Assembly (NCBI RefSeq): GCF_013459645.1
Contig: NZ_CP054861.1
Location: 2,530,001-2,594,000, forward strand
DNA length: 64,000 nt
Direction: 5' to 3'
Origin: Martelella sp. NC20
GTDB lineage: Bacteria; Pseudomonadota; Alphaproteobacteria; Rhizobiales; Rhizobiaceae
The position numbers and the translations under genes were made by a program. Positions 5,277 through 63,864 of the stretch are shown piece by piece. The notes under the pieces were generated by a model, which saw only the letters and a list, made by a program, of their open reading frames with translations, ran no database searches and had not been told where the DNA came from. The stretch's first letter is position 1; the number at the start of each line of letters is the position of its first letter.

Positions 5277-6281
5277 TCAGGCCGTCCCGGCGGACTTCAC
5301 CCAGGCCGACGGGCTCCTGCCGGTGACCCGCAGAAATTCACGATTGAAATTCGATTTGGTGTTGAAACCGCTTTCCAGCATGGCGGTGGTGACATTGTCG
5401 CCGGCACTGAGCCTTTCGCAGGCATGGTCGATGCGGAACCGGTTGATGTAACGGGAGATATTCTCGCCGGTCGCCCGGTTGAGCGCTGCCGAAAGCTGCT
5501 TGGCCGGCATCTGCAGGCGCCGGGCGAGGCGCGCAAGGGTGAGCGAGGGTTCGAGGTAAAGCCTTTCGTCGGCAAGCAGGCGATCGAGCCGTTCGAGGAT
5601 GTCGCGATCGCCCTCTTCCGGCACGGGCGAGGGCGCTGGCCGTTGCGGCTCCTCCTCCTCGAGTTCGCCGAATGCGTTCGGCGAAACGCTCAGCAGGCCG
5701 ACCGCAAGCAGCGCGGCCGAGGTGAAAATGCTGATAATCAATTGCGCCCATTCGGGCCTCTCGGAGAGGAAGGCGGCCGCGATCAGGCTGTCGCTCAGCG
5801 CCGACAGCAGCAGGCTGACGGCGATGCCGGTCCAGAGCCATTGCGACTGGCGTCCCGCCTCCAGCCGCGCCAGCGGCAGGGCGTCCCCGCCCGATTTCAG
5901 CACGTAAATGATCATGCCGCCATAGAGGATGAAGATCGCCGGCAGAATGATGTCGATGGTGGCGGGCGCGAACAGGATGCAGAAGATGGTAAACCCCGGC
6001 ACCAGCAGATGGAGGCTGTCGCGGGCAGGCTTTATCGGCCGCAGGAATGCGGTCTGGAAGGTCAGCCAGGCGAGAACCGGTATCAGCGTGGCCGTGACCG
6101 GCTGGACGGGGTGCAGCAGGGAAAGCCCGTAATATTGCAACAGGGCGACGATCAGGCTCTGCATGGCGCAGGCCGAGAGAAACACGATGACCACCGGCGG
6201 CCGTGCCTCGACGGTCAGCACCCGCAGGATCAGAAAACCAAGCACCAGCGCGGTGACCAGCGGGACCGGCAAAACCAGCAT
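5277..6281 (-). CDS. Membrane-anchored AraC-family regulator (7TM-type sensor)
   Basis: 334 aa. Residues 1-205 hold about seven hydrophobic segments (for example LVTALVLGFLILRVL and IVALLQYYGLSLL). An acidic/proline linker (ELEEEEPQRPAPSP) follows, then a C-terminal AraC HTH at about 225-334 ending GRSPSAWVKSAGTA. The class couples a membrane sensor to DNA binding. The region just upstream contains an 8-bp palindrome with a 9-bp spacer that occurs again in front of the hydrolase gene at 7631, suggesting that gene is its target. Confidence 0.87.
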   Translation of the reverse strand: MLVLPVPLVTALVLGFLILRVLTVEARPPVVIVFLSACAMQSLIVALLQYYGLSLLHPVQPVTATLIPVLAWLTFQTAFLRPIKPARDSLHLLVPGFTIFCILFAPATIDIILPAIFILYGGMIIYVLKSGGDALPLARLEAGRQSQWLWTGIAVSLLLSALSDSLIAAAFLSERPEWAQLIISIFTSAALLAVGLLSVSPNAFGELEEEEPQRPAPSPVPEEGDRDILERLDRLLADERLYLEPSLTLARLARRLQMPAKQLSAALNRATGENISRYINRFRIDHACERLSAGDNVTTAMLESGFNTKSNFNREFLRVTGRSPSAWVKSAGTA

Positions 6282-7359: not shown

Positions 7360-7503
7360 TTAAGCTGGCACGGCAGCAAACAGCAGTCCCGCCAGTTTCT
7401 GGCGATCGACCTTACCAGCCATCGTCAGCGGCAGTCTTTCGACAACATGAATTGCGCGTGGACAGTAGGAGGCCGGCAGCCGCGCCTTCTTCTCACCTGC
7501 AAT
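7360..7503 (-). pseudogene. C-terminal remnant of an acyl-AMP ligase / adenylation enzyme
   Basis: An open frame of 47 codons ending in TAA translates to the end of an AMP-forming ligase: YCPRAIHVVERLPLT and then MAGKVDRQKLAGLL, the A10 motif with its catalytic lysine (K31 of the fragment). Nothing upstream of codon 1 belongs to the gene, because repeat copy 2 starts at the very next base (7504). It is a truncated relic marking a recombination junction. Confidence 0.72.
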
Positions 7504-7637
7504 TCGTCTCCTTCAGTTTCCGGTGTGATCGTTCATAAACCGGTTTCGGGCGACCTGAAACCGGATTGAGGACGCTGGAGGCGCTGAAAATCAGAAGAAA
7601 GGGGCGTCTCAACCCGAAAGGACAACGCCCATGAAAC
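7504..7637. repeat. 134-bp direct repeat, copy 2 (hydrolase promoter)
   Basis: Partner of 6283-6416 at a constant offset of 1221 bp. It contains the second CCGGTTTC-N9-GAAACCGG palindrome and runs into the start codon of the functional hydrolase gene. Confidence 0.93.
7540..7564. promoter_or_regulatory. Palindrome, putative operator, copy 2
   Basis: The same perfect CCGGTTTC-N9-GAAACCGG dyad as at 6319-6343, here 66 bp upstream of the hydrolase start. Its retention in both copies supports a binding-site role for the neighbouring AraC regulator, but no direct evidence is available. Confidence 0.55.
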
Positions 7638-8659
7638 GACTTCTTCTTTCCATCCTGCTCCTCGGCGGTCTCGCCGCGAATGCCTTGGCGACGGAAGATC
7701 TTCCAGGCTATGAACGGATGACGGTTTTTCCAAAACAGCGCGCAACCCCGGTGGCCGCCGCCCTCTGGTATCCCGCGGGCGTTCAGAGCTATCGCGGCCA
7801 CGTCGGCGACAATCCGGTGTTTTACGGCACATCCGTCTGGATGGGCGCGAAGATTGCCGAAGGGCAATATCCGCTGTTCGTGTTCTCTCACGGCTCCGGC
7901 GGCAATATGGACAACAGCGCCTGGCTGTTTTCGGCACTGGTCGAAAAGGGCGCGATGGTGCTTGCCGTCAATCATCCCGGCAGCACGTCGGGCGATTCCT
8001 CACCGCGGGCCACGGTGTTTCTGGACCGTCGCGCCGGCGATATTTCCGCAGCACTCGACGCACTGCTCGCCGATCCGGTTCTGGGGCCGCATGTGGACCG
8101 GTCGCGGATAACCGCGCTCGGCTTCTCGCTCGGCGGCGCGACCGTGCTCAATCTCGGCGGCCTGCGGTTCGACCGGGCAGCCTATGGCGACTACTGCCGA
8201 GACAATCCGGAGGCGGCCGATTGCGTCTTTCTTGCCAAGGGCAATGTCGACTTCGATCATCTGCCGGAAGGTTTTGAAGGTGACGCGCGCGACGATCGGA
8301 TCAGCCGCGTCATCGCCATCGATCCCGGTTTCACCTACGCGGCGACAGCAGACAGCATTGCCGCTGTCGAGCGTCCCGTTCTGGTGATCAATCTGGGAGA
8401 AAAGGACCTCATGAAGGCGGCGGATGTCTCCGACAAGGGCAGCAATCTTGTTGCGCGCCTGCCGGACGGCGAGCGCGTTGTCATCGCGCCCGCGCATCAT
8501 TTTACCTTTCTGGCGCTCTGCAAGCCGGAGGGGGCAGCCCTTCTGGCAGAGGAGCGGGACGATCCGGTCTGCACCGATCCTGCCGGGGCGGATCGCGCTC
8601 TGGTGCATGAGCGCATCATCGAGGCCGTCGCGGCCGGGCTCGATAAAGCTTCGGACTGA
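7631..8659 (+). CDS. Secreted alpha/beta hydrolase (dienelactone hydrolase-like)
   Basis: 342 aa with signal peptide MKRLLLSILLLGGLAANALA. The nucleophile elbow GFSLGG puts the catalytic Ser at 166, the oxyanion region is FSHGSGGNMDN (85-95), and APAHHF supplies a candidate His at 289/290. It resembles the predicted exported dienelactone hydrolase group (COG4188), which includes PAF-acetylhydrolase-like enzymes. The ribosome site CCCGAAAGGACAACGCCC lies within repeat copy 2. The substrate is unknown, probably an ester in the periplasm. The likely regulator is the membrane AraC protein at 5277-6281. Confidence 0.85.
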   Translation: MKRLLLSILLLGGLAANALATEDLPGYERMTVFPKQRATPVAAALWYPAGVQSYRGHVGDNPVFYGTSVWMGAKIAEGQYPLFVFSHGSGGNMDNSAWLFSALVEKGAMVLAVNHPGSTSGDSSPRATVFLDRRAGDISAALDALLADPVLGPHVDRSRITALGFSLGGATVLNLGGLRFDRAAYGDYCRDNPEAADCVFLAKGNVDFDHLPEGFEGDARDDRISRVIAIDPGFTYAATADSIAAVERPVLVINLGEKDLMKAADVSDKGSNLVARLPDGERVVIAPAHHFTFLALCKPEGAALLAEERDDPVCTDPAGADRALVHERIIEAVAAGLDKASD

Positions 8660-8704
8660 GCGCAATCACGGCTCGTGGCAACGGGCGTCGCCTGTGTGGC
8701 GCGC

Positions 8705-52957: not shown

Positions 52958-54046
52958 TCAGCGCCTGAAGCCGAAGGCGGAAAGCGGGTTTTCCTCAAGC
53001 GCCGCGCGGTCCGGCCGGTCGATTGCCGGTCGGTCGAGGAAGCTTGCAAACAGCTCGCGCACCGCCGTTTCGGAAAGATCCGAGCCGATCACCACGATCC
53101 GCGTCTCCGGCGCGACGCCCTCGGGCCAGCCGGCAAGTAGACGTGCCGGATAGACCCTGTCGCCGACGCCGTGGATCGCAAGTGGGCGGGGTTCGCCGGC
53201 TAGCGCCACGATCCCCTTGATACGCAGGATATGCCCGCCGTGCTCGCCGGCCAGCCGATGCTGGAACGCCTCGATCACCGGTCGCGACGCAAGGACGCCC
53301 GCGGACAGCACGAAGGCGCGGATATGCTCGTCGTGGCGGTTGACGTCGTGATGGTGGTGATCGTGGCCGGCAACCGCCGCCCGCAACCATTCGCCGACTT
53401 GCGCCGATTTGCGCGCCGGATCGAACAGGCCCGCAACCAGAAGGCCGGGTTGAGCGGCCATGGGTGCTGCGCCATCGACGATTTCGGCGGTCGGGTTGAT
53501 GGCGGCAAGCCGCTCGGCGAGGCCGGCCGTCGCCTCAGCCGGGACGAGGTCGGTCTTGGTGATGACGAGGCGATCGGCGACGGCGACCTGGCGGGCGGCT
53601 TCGTCATGACGCTCAAGCGCCCCGATCCCGGTAACCGCATCCACCAGCGTCACCACGCCATCGATCCGGAAGCTGGCGGCAATCGCCGGATGCGCCATGA
53701 TCGCCATCAGCACGGGAACCGGGTCGGCAAGGCCGGTGGTCTCGATGATCACCCGGCTAACCGGCCTGATCCTGCCGGTCTGCATCCGGTCGAGCAGGTC
53801 GGCGAGCGTGTCGATCAGTTCGCCGCGCACCGTGCAGCAGAGGCAGCCATTGGAAAGCTCGATGATCGAATCGCCGGAGCGTTCGACCAGAAGGTGGTCG
53901 ATGCCGACTTCGCCGAACTCGTTGATGATCACCGCGGCATCGGCAAGGGCCGGATCACCGAGCAGGCGGTTCAGAAGCGTCGATTTGCCCGCGCCGAGAA
54001 AGCCGGTCACGATCGAAACGGGGATAGGATGCGAAGGCTGGTACAT
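52958..54046 (-). CDS. CobW/COG0523 GTPase (metal chaperone)
   Basis: 362 aa. Walker A GFLGAGKST (15-23), metal motif GCLCCTVRGE (CxCC), NKxD-like TKTDLVP, a His-rich loop (HDHHHHDVNRHDEH, around residues 228-241) and a CobW_C domain. COG0523 GTPases deliver Zn or Co to client proteins. No Zur site was seen. It follows dacC by 8 bp on the same strand. Confidence 0.92.
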   Translation of the reverse strand: MYQPSHPIPVSIVTGFLGAGKSTLLNRLLGDPALADAAVIINEFGEVGIDHLLVERSGDSIIELSNGCLCCTVRGELIDTLADLLDRMQTGRIRPVSRVIIETTGLADPVPVLMAIMAHPAIAASFRIDGVVTLVDAVTGIGALERHDEAARQVAVADRLVITKTDLVPAEATAGLAERLAAINPTAEIVDGAAPMAAQPGLLVAGLFDPARKSAQVGEWLRAAVAGHDHHHHDVNRHDEHIRAFVLSAGVLASRPVIEAFQHRLAGEHGGHILRIKGIVALAGEPRPLAIHGVGDRVYPARLLAGWPEGVAPETRIVVIGSDLSETAVRELFASFLDRPAIDRPDRAALEENPLSAFGFRR

Positions 54047-56554: not shown

Positions 56555-56631
56555 GGTCCCGTAGCTCAGCAGGATAGAGCATCAGATTCCTAATCTGAGG
56601 GTCACGCGTTCGAATCGCGTCGGGATCACCA
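56555..56631 (+). tRNA. tRNA-Arg (CCU anticodon)
   Basis: 77 nt including an encoded CCA. The acceptor GGTCCCG pairs with CGGGATC, anticodon stem TCAGA/TCTGA carries loop TTCCTAA with anticodon CCT (56589-56591), and the T-arm contains GTTCGAATC. Such tRNA-Arg genes are frequent integration sites. Confidence 0.97.
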
Positions 56632-56970
56632 TTTTCTTAATGATTTCAATCAGATGATCCACCGTGCGTTACTGTGCGCTTCCAAGGATGGTCCGGTACG
56701 GCTGTTTTTGGTGCGTCCACGGTCTTTCTTCGGGCGACCCGAAGCGCGGCGACATGACGTGTTGGAGCCGGCGCGGGCGATTTACTCCAGAGCGACGCGT
56801 CCGATTTTTTGGCGGGACGGACGCCGCGTAGCCTCACCAATCTTGTTGCCTCAGACTTTACCTCACCCGCGAGGCCTGTGAGTTGTCTTGCATTCGCCGT
56901 TAAAACTTGACTATAAAAGTCACATTAATATAACGCGATCCATGTATCACCTTATTCGTGGGAGACATTG
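56632..56970. other. Intergenic region after tRNA-Arg, no gene seen
   Basis: About 340 bp. No integrase remnant and no repeat of the tRNA 3' end could be found. The last 65 bp carry the promoter and operator of the uptake operon. Confidence 0.6.
56907..56934 (+). promoter_or_regulatory. Promoter with RirA-type iron-responsive operator
   Basis: TTGACT, 16 bp, TATAAC forms a good sigma70 promoter. Overlapping the -35 is TGACT-ATAAA-AGTCA (56908-56922), a perfect dyad that also fits the RirA operator consensus TGA-N9-TCA. Iron repression of the downstream operon is therefore likely. Confidence 0.65.
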
Positions 56971-58059
56971 ATGAAAGTCTGCAAAGCCTCGGGAATCCTG
57001 TCGGGTGCGTTCATTGCTCTGGCCGCGCATGCCGCCATGGCCGATCCGATCGAAATCACCGATCAGGCGGGACGGGAGGTCAGGCTCGAAGGGCCGGCTG
57101 AACGGGTCGCTTCAATCCCGATGCCGATGGCATCGACTCTGATCGCAATCGATGGCGGCGTCGAAAAGCAGGTCGGTATGAATCCGGTGGCCAAGCAGGC
57201 GGTTCTTGACGGTATTCTGGGCAAGATCTATCCGGAAGCCATCGACATTCCCTCCGATATCACCGCGCCGAATTTCATTCCCAATGTCGAGGAACTGGCG
57301 GCCACCAATCCCGACCTCGTCATCCAGTGGGCGGATCGCGGCGATGACCTTGTCGATCCGATCACCAATGCCGGTCTCACCGCCATGCTGATTTCCTACG
57401 GCACGGAGGAAAAGACGCGCGAATATATGACGATGTCAGCCAAGGCCATGGGCCGCGAGGACCGTATCGGCCCGCTGATCGAGTGGCGCGAGGACGTGGC
57501 CTCGGATGTCGCGAGCAAGGCGTCCGCGATCGCCGACGCAGACAGGCCGAAAGTGCTCTATCTGCAGCGCGCCATGGAAACCCTGATCGCCTCCGGCGCG
57601 AAGAACAACTACCACACCTGGTATATCGAGCTGACAGGCGGAACGAGCGCATCGGCTGACCTTGAGGCCAATGGCGTCACGATCAATCCGGAACAGATCG
57701 CCGAATGGAACCCCGACGTCATCCTGCTCAACAATTTCGAAAGCGACATTTCGCCGGAGCGGATTTACAACGACCCCATCCTTTCGCTCACCAGCGCGGC
57801 GCAGAATCGCAAGGTCTACCGCATGCCGCTGGGCGGCTATCGCTGGGACCCGCCGAACACGGAAAGCCCGCTGACCTGGATGTGGCTCGCCGATCTCCTC
57901 CATCCGGATGTCTTCAATTACGATCTGAGGGCCGAGATGAAGAAGGCCTACAAGACCATCTACGACTACGACCTGAGCGAAGAGGATATCGACAACATTC
58001 TCTGGGTTGATCGCAACGAGGGTGCAGCCAACTACGACCAGTTCAAGTCGAAGTCATGA
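56971..58059 (+). CDS. Periplasmic binding protein of a FecCD-type (iron/siderophore/B12) ABC importer
   Basis: 362 aa. Signal peptide MKVCKASGILSGAFIALAAHAAMA, then the peripla_BP_2 fold: ITDQAGREVRLEGPAERVAS, VEELAATNPDLVIQWADRG and ISYGTEEKTREYMTMSAKAMG. No lipobox. GTGGGAGACATTG precedes the ATG. The ligand is unknown; family members bind Fe-siderophores, heme, cobalamin or Ni chelates. It is the first gene of a five-gene operon with overlapping junctions (ATGA with the permease). No TonB receptor is nearby. Confidence 0.9.
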   Translation: MKVCKASGILSGAFIALAAHAAMADPIEITDQAGREVRLEGPAERVASIPMPMASTLIAIDGGVEKQVGMNPVAKQAVLDGILGKIYPEAIDIPSDITAPNFIPNVEELAATNPDLVIQWADRGDDLVDPITNAGLTAMLISYGTEEKTREYMTMSAKAMGREDRIGPLIEWREDVASDVASKASAIADADRPKVLYLQRAMETLIASGAKNNYHTWYIELTGGTSASADLEANGVTINPEQIAEWNPDVILLNNFESDISPERIYNDPILSLTSAAQNRKVYRMPLGGYRWDPPNTESPLTWMWLADLLHPDVFNYDLRAEMKKAYKTIYDYDLSEEDIDNILWVDRNEGAANYDQFKSKS

Positions 58060-59111
58060 GCATGACGGAAGCCGGCGCCCGTCTTCATGGCGGGACCGGC
58101 GCTCTCAGGGCGGGTCTGTTTGGGGCGATGCTGGCGGCGCTTGTCGCAGCCTTCATCTTTTCCATCGGGGCAGGGCGGTTTTCGGTCTCGCCCAGCCGGA
58201 TCGCGGAAATCATCGTGCAATGGATCGCCAACCCGTCCGCGCCGCTTGACAGCATCGACCAGCGCATCGTGCTTCTGGTGCGTATGCCGCGCGTGCTGAT
58301 CGCGGCCGTCTCGGGCGCAGCCCTTGCTGTCGGGGGCGCGGCGCTTCAGGGTGTCTTCCGCAACCCGCTGGTCTCGCCGCAGGTGCTCGGCATCAGCCAG
58401 GGCGCGGCCTTCGGCGGCGCGCTTTCGATCCTGCTCGGCTATGCCGGCGTGACGCTGCTGGGGCTTGCCTTCATCTTCGGCCTCGCGGCTCTCGTTCTGG
58501 TGGGTCTTCTCGCCCGCATCAACGGACGCACCGAAATCGTTACCGTTATCCTCTCGGGCATGGTCATCGGGGCGCTGTTCTCGGCACTCGTCTCCGTCGT
58601 CCAGTTCATCGCCGATCCCAACACCTCGCTTCCCGCGATCGTCTACTGGCTGATGGGATCGTTTTCGACAGCCACCTGGGCGCGGTTCTGGCTGGGGCTT
58701 CCGGGACTTGTTGTTGGCATTGTCGCCGTCTGGTTGTTTCGCTACCGGCTGAACCTGCTTGCGCTGGAGGACACCGAGGCCCGCTCGCTTGGCGTCAATC
58801 CGGATCGCGAACGCTGGTATATCTTCGTCGCCACGGCGCTGATGACGGCGACATCCGTCGCGGTTGCCGGCATTATCGGCTGGATCGGCCTTGTCGTACC
58901 GCATGCCGCCCGCATTCTTGTCGGCGAGGACCACCGGGTTCTGATACCGGCTTCCGCCATTCTGGGCGCAGCCTATCTCACCTTTGTCGATACGCTTGCC
59001 CGCACGCTGACGGCGGCGGAGATACCGCTCGGCGTGCTGACGGCGTTGATCGGCGCGCCGGTGTTCGGCATTCTGCTCAGGCGTCATTTTTCAAAGGCGA
59101 ACCAGCCATGA
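58056..59111 (+). CDS. FecCD family ABC transporter permease
   Basis: 351 aa with about ten membrane helices. FecCD marks are RMPRVLIAAVSGAALAVGGA, LQGVFRNPLVSPQVLGISQGA and GWIGLVVPHAARILVGEDHR. It overlaps both neighbours by 4 bp. A single permease suggests a homodimer as in BtuC. Confidence 0.95.
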   Translation: MSMTEAGARLHGGTGALRAGLFGAMLAALVAAFIFSIGAGRFSVSPSRIAEIIVQWIANPSAPLDSIDQRIVLLVRMPRVLIAAVSGAALAVGGAALQGVFRNPLVSPQVLGISQGAAFGGALSILLGYAGVTLLGLAFIFGLAALVLVGLLARINGRTEIVTVILSGMVIGALFSALVSVVQFIADPNTSLPAIVYWLMGSFSTATWARFWLGLPGLVVGIVAVWLFRYRLNLLALEDTEARSLGVNPDRERWYIFVATALMTATSVAVAGIIGWIGLVVPHAARILVGEDHRVLIPASAILGAAYLTFVDTLARTLTAAEIPLGVLTALIGAPVFGILLRRHFSKANQP

Positions 59112-59866
59112 TCGGACTTGAGGGTGCGGCCGTTTCCTTCGGCAGCCGGGCTATCTTTCGCGATGTCACCTTCGAGGTTCCTGTCGGACGGACCATGGCC
59201 ATTCTCGGGCCGAACGGTCGCGGCAAGACGACGCTTCTGCGCGCGCTTCTGGGCTTTCAGCCGCTTGCGGCCGGGAAGCGCACCGCGCCGAGGATTGCCG
59301 GCTATGTGCCCCAGCATGGCGCTTCGCAGGCGAAACTTTCCGGTCTCGATGTCGTGGTCATGGGGCATGCCGCCCGCATCGGGCTTTTCGGCCAGCCCGG
59401 GAAGCGTGATATCGAGGCGGCGCGGGAGGCGCTTGATATTGTGGGTGCCGCCCATCTCGCCGAACAGCGCTACGACCGGATGTCCGGCGGTCAGCGGCAG
59501 ATGATCCTGATCGCCCGTGCGCTCGCCACCGGTTCGCCGGCGCTCGTCTTTGACGAGCCGACGTCAGCGCTCGATCTTGGCAACCAGTCGAAGACGCTCG
59601 ATCTTCTGAACATGCTGCGCGCCCGCCGCGACCGGGCGATACTCTTCACTACGCACGACCCCAACCATGCGCTGGCGGCAGCCGATGACGTGCTGCTGAT
59701 GATGCCGGGCGGGCGTGAAATCAACGGGACAGTCGAGGCAATGATCACGCCGGATCTGCTGAATACGCTCTACGGCGTCGACATGCGCTGGGTGGAAATG
59801 GAAGGCCAGACCGGCAGCGCGCGTCGCGCCGTGGTGCCGGCGTTTGCGGGACGCGAATACGCATGA
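59108..59866 (+). CDS. FecE/BtuD-like ABC transporter ATPase
   Basis: 252 aa. Walker A GPNGRGKTT with Arg in the usually small position, signature MSGGQRQMILIARALA, Walker B LVFDEPTSALD and H-loop TTHDPNHAL. It powers the importer. It overlaps the next gene in ATGA, which argues that the next two products belong to the same process. Confidence 0.95.
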   Translation: MIGLEGAAVSFGSRAIFRDVTFEVPVGRTMAILGPNGRGKTTLLRALLGFQPLAAGKRTAPRIAGYVPQHGASQAKLSGLDVVVMGHAARIGLFGQPGKRDIEAAREALDIVGAAHLAEQRYDRMSGGQRQMILIARALATGSPALVFDEPTSALDLGNQSKTLDLLNMLRARRDRAILFTTHDPNHALAAADDVLLMMPGGREINGTVEAMITPDLLNTLYGVDMRWVEMEGQTGSARRAVVPAFAGREYA

Positions 59867-61167
59867 CCGTGCTCTATGTGAGATCAACCTTTGAAGGCCC
59901 CTCGGAAACCTTCCGCCGTGCCGCGGCCGATGGCTTGCTCGACATCGTCGAACAGAGCGCCCTGAAACCGCAGGATCTGTCGAAATATGGCGGGCTGATC
60001 ACCTCCAATCAGCTCGATCAGAATGCCATGCTGGAACTCAGGCCGGCGCTGGAAGCCTTTCTAGCAAGGGGCGGGCGCTGGTTCTTCAACGGCCATATGG
60101 TGCGCCCTATGGTTGCCGGGATGGAACAGTATCGGCCGATCAGGGCACCGAAACGGGCCGATTTCGACCTCAAGGCCATCAACGCTCATCCGATCTTCGA
60201 CGGCATCGACCTGAAGAAGCTGGAAACCAACAAGGACGTTGCCGGGTTTTACGGCCGCGGCTGCAATCCGCTTCCCGAAGGAGCGGTCGCCGTCAATGGT
60301 CTCGGTCCGGCGCGGGTGCCTGTCGACTGGGTCTGGGAACGACCCGGCGGCGGGCGCATCTTCAGCCATGCCGGCAATGATCTGGCGAGCATGGGGCGCG
60401 AATGGGAATTGCCGGCAACTCTTGCCGCCCGCATCGTGAACTGGGCGGCCGGCGGTGCCTGCATCGGGCAGACGACCGCGCAGCCTCTTTCCGAGACCTA
60501 CCGGGAAGCTCTGGCGGAAGCGGAAGCCTATCGGGGCATGAGAAGCGGCTCGGGCCGTGGGGGGCGTCTGGTGCTGCCATCGTCCGGCTGTTACTACCAT
60601 ATCCACGCGCTGGAAGGCTCGCGCCATGCGCGATATCTGGACGCCATCACCACGCCTGAAGCCTTGCGCGAAACGCTGAGGCCCGAAGACGCGCTGTGGG
60701 TGCCGTGTCGCACACCGGCCCAGCGGATGATTGCCGCAAAAGATGTCGTCGCGGCGCATCTTCAGGCTGGCGGGACTGTCGTGGCGCTGGGGGAGAGCCA
60801 CTCGCATCTCTGGCTGCCGAATGTGGAATTTGTCCCGACGCCGACAAACTGGTGGTGGTGGCTTGAAGAGGGCGCCGATCTCGGCGTGAGGATCGCCGCC
60901 CCTGACCATCCGTTGATGGCGGGCATGGGCGATCGGGATGCCACCTGGCATCTGCATGGCTGGTTCACGCCGCCCGAAGGCGCGGACGTCCTGATCCAGG
61001 ACGGCGAGGGCAGGGCCGTTCTCTATATCGATGAAGTGTCGACGCCGGGGCGGATGATCGTCTCGTCGCTCGACCCGATGTTCCATCACGGATCGCATTT
61101 CATGCCGGCGACGACGCGTTTCCTCGACCGGTTCATTCCCAATCTGAAAGATTATCTCGATGCATGA
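59863..61167 (+). CDS. Unassigned protein with two GATase1/ThuA-like modules
   Basis: 434 aa, not a recognised functional family. The N-half (1-200) looks like a class I glutamine-amidotransferase fold: YGGLITSNQL, LARGGRWFFNGH, NAHPIFDGIDL and RIFSHAGNDLAS. The C-half (235-434) repeats this plan (QAGGTVVALGESHSHLW, PDHPLMAGMGDRD, GRMIVSSLDPMFHHGSHF), suggesting an internal duplication. The C-half is His-rich (H246, H248, H255, H313, H315, H363, H365, H408, H409, H412) and has four consecutive Trp (330-333), which fits metal or aromatic ligand binding. No signal peptide, so cytosolic. Its overlap with the ATPase gene suggests it handles the imported compound. Confidence 0.75.
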   Translation: MTVLYVRSTFEGPSETFRRAAADGLLDIVEQSALKPQDLSKYGGLITSNQLDQNAMLELRPALEAFLARGGRWFFNGHMVRPMVAGMEQYRPIRAPKRADFDLKAINAHPIFDGIDLKKLETNKDVAGFYGRGCNPLPEGAVAVNGLGPARVPVDWVWERPGGGRIFSHAGNDLASMGREWELPATLAARIVNWAAGGACIGQTTAQPLSETYREALAEAEAYRGMRSGSGRGGRLVLPSSGCYYHIHALEGSRHARYLDAITTPEALRETLRPEDALWVPCRTPAQRMIAAKDVVAAHLQAGGTVVALGESHSHLWLPNVEFVPTPTNWWWWLEEGADLGVRIAAPDHPLMAGMGDRDATWHLHGWFTPPEGADVLIQDGEGRAVLYIDEVSTPGRMIVSSLDPMFHHGSHFMPATTRFLDRFIPNLKDYLDA

Positions 61168-61672
61168 CACGATAACGGTTTGCGAAAACGGACGGGAGCT
61201 GAGCTTTTCGTTCGATGCCATCATGGCCTATCACGGCGGCGGCTTTCCCGGCGGCGTGGTGCATGGGCTGAAAGCGATGCAGGCAGCGTTTCCGCTTCTC
61301 GATGACAAACCGCTTGAGAGGCGCGAAATATCCATTCTCACGGCCTTTACGGGGCCGGGCGGTCGCGATGCGCTGGAAATGGTGACGCGGGCGCTGACCG
61401 AAAACCGGCTGGCCGTCTTCCGTGCCCTCGGCGGCAAGGATATCATCACCGATCCGCCCGGACCTTATGTCTTCCGCTTCGCCTATCGCGGAAAGGTCGC
61501 GGAAGCGGTGATAAAGCCCGGCCATGTTCGCGAGGAATTCGTGCGGCTTGGCGGCAAGAAGGACAAGACGGCAGACGAAACCGCGCGCCATGAAGCCCTG
61601 AAGGCCGAGATGGCGGAGCGCCTTCTGCCGCTTGCCGCCGACGAGATCTACGTCGCGCGACTCGTTGAATGA
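61160..61672 (+). CDS. FmdE-like protein lacking the metal-site cysteine
   Basis: 170 aa. AYHGGGFPGGVVHGLKAMQAAF (residues 23-44, in part) resembles the FmdE HGHxCPG motif, and PGGRDALEMVTRAL resembles its second conserved block. The family cysteine is replaced by Phe29 while His25 is kept. FmdE proteins were named from formylmethanofuran dehydrogenase operons, but no such enzyme is here. It overlaps the upstream gene by 8 bp and ends the operon. Its role is unknown, possibly binding or processing the imported metal complex. Confidence 0.65.
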   Translation: MHDTITVCENGRELSFSFDAIMAYHGGGFPGGVVHGLKAMQAAFPLLDDKPLERREISILTAFTGPGGRDALEMVTRALTENRLAVFRALGGKDIITDPPGPYVFRFAYRGKVAEAVIKPGHVREEFVRLGGKKDKTADETARHEALKAEMAERLLPLAADEIYVARLVE

Positions 61673-61956
61673 GCCTTGATCGGTTCTGGTGCCGCAGTTG
61701 TTGAACATCGACAGATGTTCATGTCGACTCGAGCCAGTCTATGGGGTTGATCCTCCTTAAGCCATGCCGGGCTGATACAGATCAAGGCGCTGTCCTTGCT
61801 TTCAGCGGCGATATGATGTCGTCGCTATGGCAAAGGAAGAGGTGACGCGGCATATAATGCTTGCGACAAACACGCTGCCCAAGAATCCCCGGCACCTTTG
61901 TCCGGAAATTCCTGGCTCCTGTGTTTTCAGGCCGTCACCAGAGGCAGATCTCTCAC
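61673..61956. other. Intergenic leader of the P-type ATPase
   Basis: 284 bp without a supported gene. It contains an FNR/FixK-type box (separate entry) and a small inverted repeat near GAACATCGACAGATGTTC (61703-61720) that could end the upstream operon or be an operator. Confidence 0.55.
61772..61785. promoter_or_regulatory. FNR/FixK-type anaerobox
   Basis: CTGAT-ACAG-ATCAA, one mismatch from TTGAT-N4-ATCAA. It lies about 170 bp upstream of the P-type ATPase start and implies low-oxygen induction. Confidence 0.6.
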
Positions 61957-63864
61957 ATGAACGCGTGGCTTCCCAATCATCTCAAGACCGCTCTGCTTGC
62001 CATTGCGGCGCTCGGGCTGGCTGCGGGGCTCGCGCTCAGGGTGGCCGGCCTTCCAGGGCCGGCGGACTTTGTATGGGCGGCGGGCGTGGCGCCCGTCCTT
62101 GCCGCGCTGCTGATCGAGATCGTGCGCGGCCTTTCCAAGGGCGAGGTCGGGCTCGACATCGTGGCGGTTCTGTCAATGTCGGCCGCCCTGCTTGTCGGCG
62201 AGACTCTCGCGGCGGCGGTGGTGGCCGTGATGTATTCGGGCGGCACCTTTCTCGAGAGCTTTGCCGAAGGCCGCGCCCGCCGCGAAATGAGCGATCTTCT
62301 GTCCCGCGTTCCACGAACCGCGACGCGGTACAGCAATGGCGCGCTGGATGAGGTGCCATTGAACGCCATCGCGCCGGGCGATCTTCTGTTGATACGTCAG
62401 GGCGATGTCGCATCCGTTGACGGCACGGTCGAAAGCGACCGGGCCGTGCTGGATCAGTCGGCGCTGACGGGCGAAGCCATGCCTGTGCGTCTGGACAGGG
62501 GCCAGGATGTGATGAGCGGCTCCACCAATGCGGGCGAAGCGTTCGATCTGCGGGCAACGCGGCGGGCCGCCGAAAGCACCTATGCCGGGATCGTCCGGCT
62601 GGTCGAGGCGGCGCAGGCGTCGAAGGCTCCGATGGCCCGCATGGCCGACCGCTGGTCGCTGATATTTCTCGCCGTGACCCTTGCCCTTGCATCGGCGGCG
62701 TGGTGGTCAACCGGCGACCCGATCCGCGCCGTTGCGGTTCTGGTCGTGGCCACACCCTGCCCGCTGATCCTGGCCGTGCCGGTGGCGCTGGTCGCAGGCA
62801 TGTCGCGGGCGGCCCAGTTCGGCGTTCTGATCAAGGGCGCAAAGCCGCTGGAGGCGCTGGCGCGGATCAAGACGCTGATTCTCGACAAGACCGGCACGCT
62901 GACCGACGGACGCCCGCAACTCGTATCAATCAAGACGCTTGGCGATATGTCGGAGGACGAGGTCCTGTATTTCGCCGCCGCCCTCGATCAGGCGTCGAAA
63001 CACCCGATTGCTCAGGCCATCGTCTCTGCGGCCCAGCAGCGTGACGCCATCCTGCCGGTTCCGGAAAACGTGGTCGAGATGCCCGGCGAAGGCGTTTCGG
63101 GAACCATCGGGGGCCGGAAGGCGGTGGTCGGGGGCGCGCGTTTCGTCGCCTCTCAGGGCGGGAAGGCTGACGCCGACAGCGCGGTCACGGCGGCGGGTTC
63201 CGTTGTCGTCTCGCTTGCGGTCGACGGAAAGCTCATGGGGCATCTGGTGATGGCGGATGCGTTGCGGTCGGGCACCGCCGGGCTTCTGGCAGGACTGCGC
63301 CGGCAGGGGATCACGCGCATCCTGTTGGCGACCGGGGATCGCCGGGCGGTGGCAGAGGCCGTGACCGACGGTTTGGGGCTTGATGCGGTTCGAGCCGAAT
63401 TGACGCCGGACCAAAAGGTGCTTCTGGTTCTGACCGAGCGCAAGAACGGTCCGGTGATGATGGTCGGCGACGGCGTCAACGACGCGCCAGCGCTGGCCGC
63501 GGCCGATATCGGGGTCGCCATGGGCGCGCGCGGAGCCGCAGCCTCGGCAGAGGCTGCGGACGTGGTTCTGCTGGTCGACAGCCTTGACCACCTGCTGTCG
63601 GGGATCGAGATCGCCCGGCGATCGCGCAGGATCGCGCTTGAAAGTGTCGCGGTCGGTATTGGCCTTTCCGTTGCGGGGATGATTGCCGCTGCCTTCGGGT
63701 ATCTGACGCCCGTCCAGGGCGCGATGCTTCAGGAATTGATAGACGTTGCCGTCATCCTGAACGCGCTCCGTGCGTTGAGGATCATGCCAACTCAGGCGGC
63801 GAAATCCGGAGACCCGAACCAAGTGGGCCACGAGGCGCCGGATTTGAAGACTCATACTGTATGA
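61957..63864 (+). CDS. P1B-type heavy-metal ATPase with TPC motif
   Basis: 635 aa from ATG at 61957. No N-terminal HMA domain. Membrane segments precede the actuator (LTGEAMPV, 170-177). The metal-site helix reads ATPCPLILAVPV (TPC at 266-268), then phosphorylation site DKTGTLTDG (Asp310), SKHPIAQA and GDGVNDAPALA. TPC replaces the CPC of copper and zinc pumps; TPC is characteristic of the P1B-5 group, whose member Nia of Sinorhizobium exports Fe and Ni. The C-terminal hemerythrin-like domain of Nia is absent. Cargo is therefore an inference. Confidence 0.85.
   Translation: MNAWLPNHLKTALLAIAALGLAAGLALRVAGLPGPADFVWAAGVAPVLAALLIEIVRGLSKGEVGLDIVAVLSMSAALLVGETLAAAVVAVMYSGGTFLESFAEGRARREMSDLLSRVPRTATRYSNGALDEVPLNAIAPGDLLLIRQGDVASVDGTVESDRAVLDQSALTGEAMPVRLDRGQDVMSGSTNAGEAFDLRATRRAAESTYAGIVRLVEAAQASKAPMARMADRWSLIFLAVTLALASAAWWSTGDPIRAVAVLVVATPCPLILAVPVALVAGMSRAAQFGVLIKGAKPLEALARIKTLILDKTGTLTDGRPQLVSIKTLGDMSEDEVLYFAAALDQASKHPIAQAIVSAAQQRDAILPVPENVVEMPGEGVSGTIGGRKAVVGGARFVASQGGKADADSAVTAAGSVVVSLAVDGKLMGHLVMADALRSGTAGLLAGLRRQGITRILLATGDRRAVAEAVTDGLGLDAVRAELTPDQKVLLVLTERKNGPVMMVGDGVNDAPALAAADIGVAMGARGAAASAEAADVVLLVDSLDHLLSGIEIARRSRRIALESVAVGIGLSVAGMIAAAFGYLTPVQGAMLQELIDVAVILNALRALRIMPTQAAKSGDPNQVGHEAPDLKTHTV

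Follow-up and report, generated by a model that had tools for sequence, protein, structure and literature searches.

The 64,000-nucleotide (nt) stretch of Martelella sp. NC20 analyzed here (contig NZ_CP054861.1, positions 2,530,001 to 2,594,000; hereafter the window, numbered from its first base) contains a plus-strand operon in which an ATP-binding cassette (ABC) importer is coupled to two accessory proteins, G434 and F170. The first gene (56971..58059) encodes a periplasmic substrate-binding protein (SBP; Peripla_BP_2, 58.3 bits, Pfam cut-off 27.5); its start was placed at the ATG at 56971, with a TTG at 56968 as an alternative. Genes for a FecCD/BtuC-type permease (58056..59111; 293.8 bits, cut-off 26.5) and an ABC ATPase (ABC_tran, 59108..59866; 75.5 bits, cut-off 25) follow. 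These three components in one operon, all above their Pfam cut-offs, identify an importer. G434 (434 amino acids [aa]; 59863..61167) is predicted to be a fused pair of GATase1/ThuA-like domains, and F170 (170 aa; 61160..61672) is predicted to adopt an FmdE fold. Successive genes overlap by 4, 4, 4, and 8 bp, and such overlapping reading frames make joint translation of the five genes likely. A first-pass annotation, made from the sequence alone, had delimited the same five genes with 4- to 8-bp overlaps and taken the first three for an importer; its coordinates were exact, and the Pfam matches bear out the importer.

The operon thus resembles FecCD/BtuCDF-type (type II) importers of iron chelates and cobalamin in having an SBP, a FecCD permease, and an ATPase. 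Unlike them, it adds two coupled downstream cytosolic accessory proteins, none of its five products passes an NCBIfam cut-off, and no TonB receptor (PF00593) is encoded in the 64-kb window, as had been noted before; all five receptors of the genome lie elsewhere. G434 and F170 have no Pfam match above cut-off. In a sequence search, the solved structure closest to the SBP was 4ovk (E value 1.7e-55); weaker matches were 4ls3/4ino, named nickel/iron-binding, and 3psa (HI_1472).

Upstream of the SBP gene, TGACTATAAAAGTCA (56908..56922, no strand assigned) forms a TGA-N9-TCA motif that is also a near-perfect dyad. Its first base is where the first-pass annotation let the operon region begin, and its end lies 48 bp before the ATG. 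We take TGA-N9-TCA to be the IRO box of RirA, for which TGACTATAAAAGTCA is a candidate. The motif recurs: counting the window, it precedes 27 of 49 related SBP genes (shuffled sequences: mean, 3.8; SD, 1.6; maximum, 8; n = 200). In the part nearest the gene, the N9 spacing occurred in 26/49 cases, and the other spacings from N4 to N15 occurred in 0 to 10/49. The motif also stands before both paralogous operons of this genome, compared with 4 of 54 picked open reading frames (ORFs) of the window, and before all three alphaproteobacterial SBP83-type relatives, two of which are near copies. As a weak positive control, it lies within 250 nt upstream of two of the five genomic TonB receptor genes, with ORF starts as called rather than verified. 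RirA is encoded in the genome (NF008886, 272 bits; cut-off, 193). Operator and regulator, both recognized from sequence only, place the operon in a putative RirA regulon. The operon is probably switched on at iron shortage; the recurring box and the presence of RirA support the iron control suggested by the first-pass annotation. The TGAC part of the box could be a −35 element, but this would leave the TCA at fixed spacing unexplained; a sigma-70 promoter scan found nothing. At least twelve box-less operons with split G434 genes (loci L047, L049, L051, L053, L057, L061-L063, L066-L068, and L074) share a stretch, approximately AAGTGGAGATTTGTAGACAAG, upstream of the SBP gene.

The association of the accessory genes with the importer is conserved. 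One scan of genome contigs yielded 66 loci with a G434 relative in other genomes. In 49 of them FecCD was directly upstream of the G434 homologue, and in 48 of these F170 was also directly downstream, the remaining one being at a contig edge. FecCD was downstream in 5/66 loci, a Dpp-type importer was nearby in four (divergent in L069), and an ATPase without a detected FecCD was upstream in three. No importer was seen in three loci, among them L038, whose contig ends inside an SBP gene, and two were at a contig edge. The 48 loci are mutually related and thus not independent cases; the gene order nevertheless exceeds chance. The tight coupling that had been proposed is therefore observed in 48/66 loci, and homologues of the last two genes are not consistently found away from the transporter.

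Among 218 sampled genomes of the family, at least 11 contained G434, at least 11 contained F170, and at least 7 contained both; these are lower bounds, since only some candidates per genome were scored. All seven genomes with both genes had at least one adjacent G434-F170 pair. Of the four genomes with F170 relatives (F) only, two (L090 and L091) are of the C-P lyase (Phn) type described below, L089 shows no importer in the stretch seen, and the match in G337 is partial. Three of the four genomes with G434 only have FecCD importers (L093, L094, and L095); L092 is the fourth. In the phylum, F was found in 4 of 299 sampled genomes, two of the matches being distant, so the system is patchy. The closest named homologues of G434 are from Martelella.

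Both halves of G434, here called GA and GB, were assigned a GATase1/ThuA-like fold by fold search, with 1t0b, 3rht, and the N-terminal domain of IFT52 as structural relatives. Unlike these proteins, G434 has two fused domains, no invariant Cys, and no sequence-level match; in many of its relatives GA and GB are separate genes. The alignment comprised 41 of 120 listed homologues, after four of 45 rows (P0108, P0109, P0119, and P0120) had been dropped as swapped, broken, or of odd length. Across these 41, no Cys is invariant, C200 and C282 being nearly so. Judged from the alignment, without superposition, G434 therefore lacks the conserved nucleophilic Cys of class I glutamine amidotransferases. 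BLAST of one half against the other found nothing, no genuine relatives of G434 or F170 emerged when their sequences were compared with solved structures, and no signal peptide of G434 was seen by eye.

F170 was likewise assigned by fold search, and it shares the predicted fold of the FmdE family PF02663 (2glz, 2gvi, and 3d00). The GATase/ThuA-like and FmdE-like labels of the first-pass annotation are thus supported by these predictions. When profiles of F and of seven FmdE-like proteins were compared, the probability was only 6%; the fold search settled the fold question. Unlike members of PF02663, F170 has no Pfam match of its own; in an alignment of F170 with 33 of 120 listed homologues (174 found), 10 of the 34 matched PF02663 weakly (E values up to 5, best 3.7e-4). 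In the alignment, His25 occupies the first metal-ligand position of FmdE (His15 of 2glz). Equivalents of H17, C19, and C55 are absent and the sole Cys is C8, so the His-His-Cys-Cys site is incomplete. Many Arg, Lys, and His residues are invariant among close homologues. Because three of the four metal ligands are lost, metal stripping by an FmdE site appears less likely than binding of a ligand (anion). Profile matches of F170 to TAL effectors added up from numerous weak matches to repeats and were set aside.

According to a passage of Axelrod et al. 2010 (PMC2954224), most PF02663/FmdE genes adjoin metal-ion transporter genes. The earlier remark that neither of the last two proteins is known to act beside such transporters was therefore too strong. 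Among 13 loci of classical FmdE genes of the phylum, FecCD-like neighbors were seen at L104 only, in short stretches of ~2.3 to 3.4 kb; within such stretches they are rarer than that passage leads one to expect.

A sister operon links the same importer type to C-P lyase, an enzyme that cleaves carbon-phosphorus bonds. On contig C3 of this genome (263,340 bases; L082, G000:C3:108000-122000), a divergent LysR gene and a G434 copy are followed by genes for SBP, FecCD, ATPase, and F (56% to F170), then by phnG, phnH, phnI, and phnJ; two ATPase genes occupy the places of phnK and phnL. PhnI and PhnJ of L082 are above their Pfam cut-offs and PhnG to PhnJ are annotated in relatives, which identifies a C-P lyase core in the sister operon. 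Like known C-P lyase operons (phnGHIJKL with phnCDE), it has phnGHIJ and, where phnK and phnL would stand, two ATPase genes. Unlike them, it has a FecCD-type importer and F where the phosphonate importer stands, a divergent LysR gene, and, in alphaproteobacteria, an iron-type box upstream. No phnCDE is annotated in the sister-operon stretches examined, for which the gene table is incomplete and the rest of the records was not checked. The G434 copy on C3 is frame-broken (L082, ~7390-8700), as is that of L043; intact relatives are found at L038 and L040.

The sister operon occurs on plasmids, 15 of 69 plasmid matches having been examined. The F copy of contig C3 recurs at 99.4% on a 263,333-base plasmid of Martelella sp. 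NC18. Plasmid annotations show the run SBP-FecCD-ATPase-F-phnGHIJ plus two ATPase genes in Agrobacterium vitis and in Rhizobium sp. ZX09, both plasmids being predicted conjugative, as well as in Proteus mirabilis, whose plasmid is predicted mobilizable and encodes an F with 70% identity to that of C3. In Labrenzia, the stretch examined of a plasmid predicted to be conjugative has the same run up to phnH, and the operon is plasmid-borne in 3 of 5426 Escherichia coli genomes. Plasmid-borne loci of this type include L082, L122, L127, L149, and L150. In A. vitis and at L018/L019, an operon of the window type lies directly beside the sister operon. Among 13 alphaproteobacterial sister operons, 12 had TGA-N9-TCA no more than 120 nt from the SBP start, and other spacings occurred in 0 or 1 (shuffled sequences: 0.68; SD, 0.82; maximum, 5; n = 1,000); in the 13th (L149), a box at 6054-6068 lies ahead of the likely true start. 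Eleven of these operons show phn genes; at L038 and L040 the contig ends before them. Several of the 13 are near copies and thus do not count independently. L122, the gammaproteobacterial copy, lacks a TGA-N9-TCA site, and a Fur-like site considered there was rejected, its best match being equaled by 147 of 1,000 shuffles.

A third paralogous operon (L083, 5079-14532) has swapped G434 halves and an iron-type box, with genes for DAO, an M24 peptidase, and Ldh_2 downstream of it. The idea of an amino-acid-type chelate, which these downstream genes had raised, was dropped because no such genes were recognized by eye beside the related L095.

GA, GB, and F also accompany other importers. SBP_bac_5 (Nik/Dpp) importers with GA/GB and/or F were found by Pfam at L065, L070, and L073, by BLAST at L069, by annotation at L132, and by reading only at L125 (Paenibacillus). 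NMT1/NrtA importers with GA/GB or F were found by Pfam at L123 (plasmid pECOED of E. coli ED1a) and L130 and by annotation at L131, and an SBP_bac_8/6 plus BPD_transp_1 importer was found at L128, on a haloarchaeal plasmid. Some of these have GA/GB only (L128 and L130) or F only (L123 and L131). At L123 (10001-13436), two divergent F-family proteins flank the NMT1/NrtA-type importer. Thus, the coupling to a FecCD importer that had been proposed stands but is not exclusive. In a GB-half tree built from 55 of 86 rows, after thinning of FecCD rows at least 85% alike and without the window's own sequence, the Dpp label needs 7 changes, at least 4 of them forced by starred branches; we assigned the importer labels by hand, those of L065's second copy and the divergent L069 being doubtful, and several branches are long. 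As low a number was obtained in 42 of 500 shuffles, so the label is hardly more clustered than by chance.

We propose that the operon is iron-repressed (RirA-type) and imports a small iron chelate, which G434 and F170 would take over in the cytosol, with no TonB receptor encoded nearby; we give this reading an even chance. The binding protein would deliver the cargo to the FecCD/ATPase importer, a step supported by sequence similarity. In the cytosol, G434 would likely be a ligand-binding receptor or perform a non-amidotransferase hydrolytic step, and F170 would likely provide an anion or ligand site. Together they may receive the chelate, assist in releasing its metal, and hand on the organic ligand, which in the sister operons would feed directly into C-P lyase. 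Some members of the importer family would then carry metal-phosphonate chelates as a source of iron and phosphorus. That G434 and F170 open or modify the imported complex, as first suggested from their tight coupling, is plausible and gains indirect support from the link of the sister operons to C-P lyase. A role on the cargo side is also suggested by the occurrence of GA, GB, and F with several unrelated importer classes and by the position of F directly before a catabolic pathway, the phn genes. We infer that the cargo is a chelate on which G434 and F170 act, an iron chelate in the window type and a phosphonate chelate in the sister type.

Several observations weigh against this proposal. 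The box is missing in 22 of the 49 operons, 16 of the 22 belonging to the split-gene group L046-L074. GA/GB occur without a recognized importer at L052 and L056 and, near contig edges, at L064 and L071; F or distant F occurs without an importer in the stretch seen at L089, L097, and L126. L090 and L091 carry F and an importer but no G434, which is thus not needed there. In a wider set of F proteins, four distant members (L097, L123b, L126, and L131) lack His25. Nik/Dpp-type relatives are accompanied by HupE/UreJ_2 (L070, L073, and L132) and NicO (L073), nickel-type genes pointing to nickel or cobalt as their cargo. The main weakness is that ligand and activity of the system are inferred and that nickel signals dominate the Nik/Dpp branch.

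A broader version, in which GA, GB, and F form a portable cytosolic "chelate dismantling" module behind several unrelated ABC importers, stripping metal from organic chelates, and one plasmid-borne branch frees phosphonate for C-P lyase under iron control, is tentative, and we regard it as rather doubtful.

Given these nickel signals, the cargo might instead be a nickel or cobalt chelate, with G434 and F170 handling nickel and the iron box reflecting cross-regulation. The nickel-type genes stand in the same run as the Dpp-type relatives; at L098, a distant F homologue (25%) was read by eye in a run of hyp (NiFe hydrogenase maturation) genes with a NiCoT-like gene; one FmdE structure contained mixed Zn/Ni, according to the part of PMC2954224 consulted; and the weak SBP matches 4ls3/4ino are named nickel-binding. 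However, the RirA-type box recurs in window-type operons, only one of the four FmdE metal ligands is kept in F170, and the genome has another candidate transporter of nickel type, NicO at C1:397840. TonB receptors also stand beside FecCD-type relatives at L034 (Pfam), L133 (annotated), and L129 (by eye), a siderophore theme, and those beside L133 argue against nickel. We consider this explanation unlikely.

Still less probable is a role of G434 and F170 in the cytosol as regulators of the importer or as subunits docking to it, acting in trans-inhibition or assembly and not as enzymes on the cargo. The overlap of the G434 gene with the ATPase gene, a translational link, would fit such a role, as would the lack of an invariant Cys in G434 and the loss of most of the FmdE metal site. 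Yet homologues accompany importers with unrelated permeases and ATPases, which disfavors specific docking, and F stands immediately 5′ of phnG in the sister operons. Equally improbable is a conventional importer for an already known compound, of the citrate, cobalamin, heme, or molybdate type (FecCD importers for these exist), with accessory proteins retained for historical reasons. The weak SBP similarity to HI_1472, a molybdate/tungstate binder, would agree with it. Against it stand the lack of NCBIfam matches for SBP, permease, and ATPase and the partners of G434 relatives, which are FecCD importers in alphaproteobacteria, betaproteobacteria (L129), and gammaproteobacteria (L124) and other importers in Bacillota (L125) and on a haloarchaeal plasmid (L128).

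Other features surround the operon. A tRNA-Arg (CCT) gene lies directly 5′ of it (56555-56631), a possible island insertion point. A heavy-metal P-type ATPase gene (61861-63864) follows ~190 bp 3′ of it on the same strand, and a CobW-family GTPase with a His-rich stretch is encoded ~3 kb upstream on the opposite strand (52958-54046).

Among the open-licence papers listed by our searches, we found no description of the operon or of a FecCD-linked C-P lyase, and no paper combining two of FecCD, C-P lyase, GATase1, and FmdE. In the accessible part of a Nodularia paper (PMC9846622), the elements searched for stand in separate loci. Each part of the system is of a known kind; that literature yielded no account of their conserved combination, of the exchange of importers, or of the C-P lyase branch with its iron-type box.

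For many small chelates imported by FecCD systems, we know of no described route of metal release inside the cell. A conserved accessory pair with predictable folds makes intracellular metal release testable. Finding C-P lyase together with a FecCD importer and an iron-type box suggests possible uptake of phosphonate chelators, whether natural or synthetic (e.g., aminopolyphosphonates), as metal complexes, which, if true, would bear on phosphonate turnover in soil and water. If the "chelate dismantling" reading is true, a single iron-controlled operon would harvest both iron and phosphorus from metal-phosphonate chelates.

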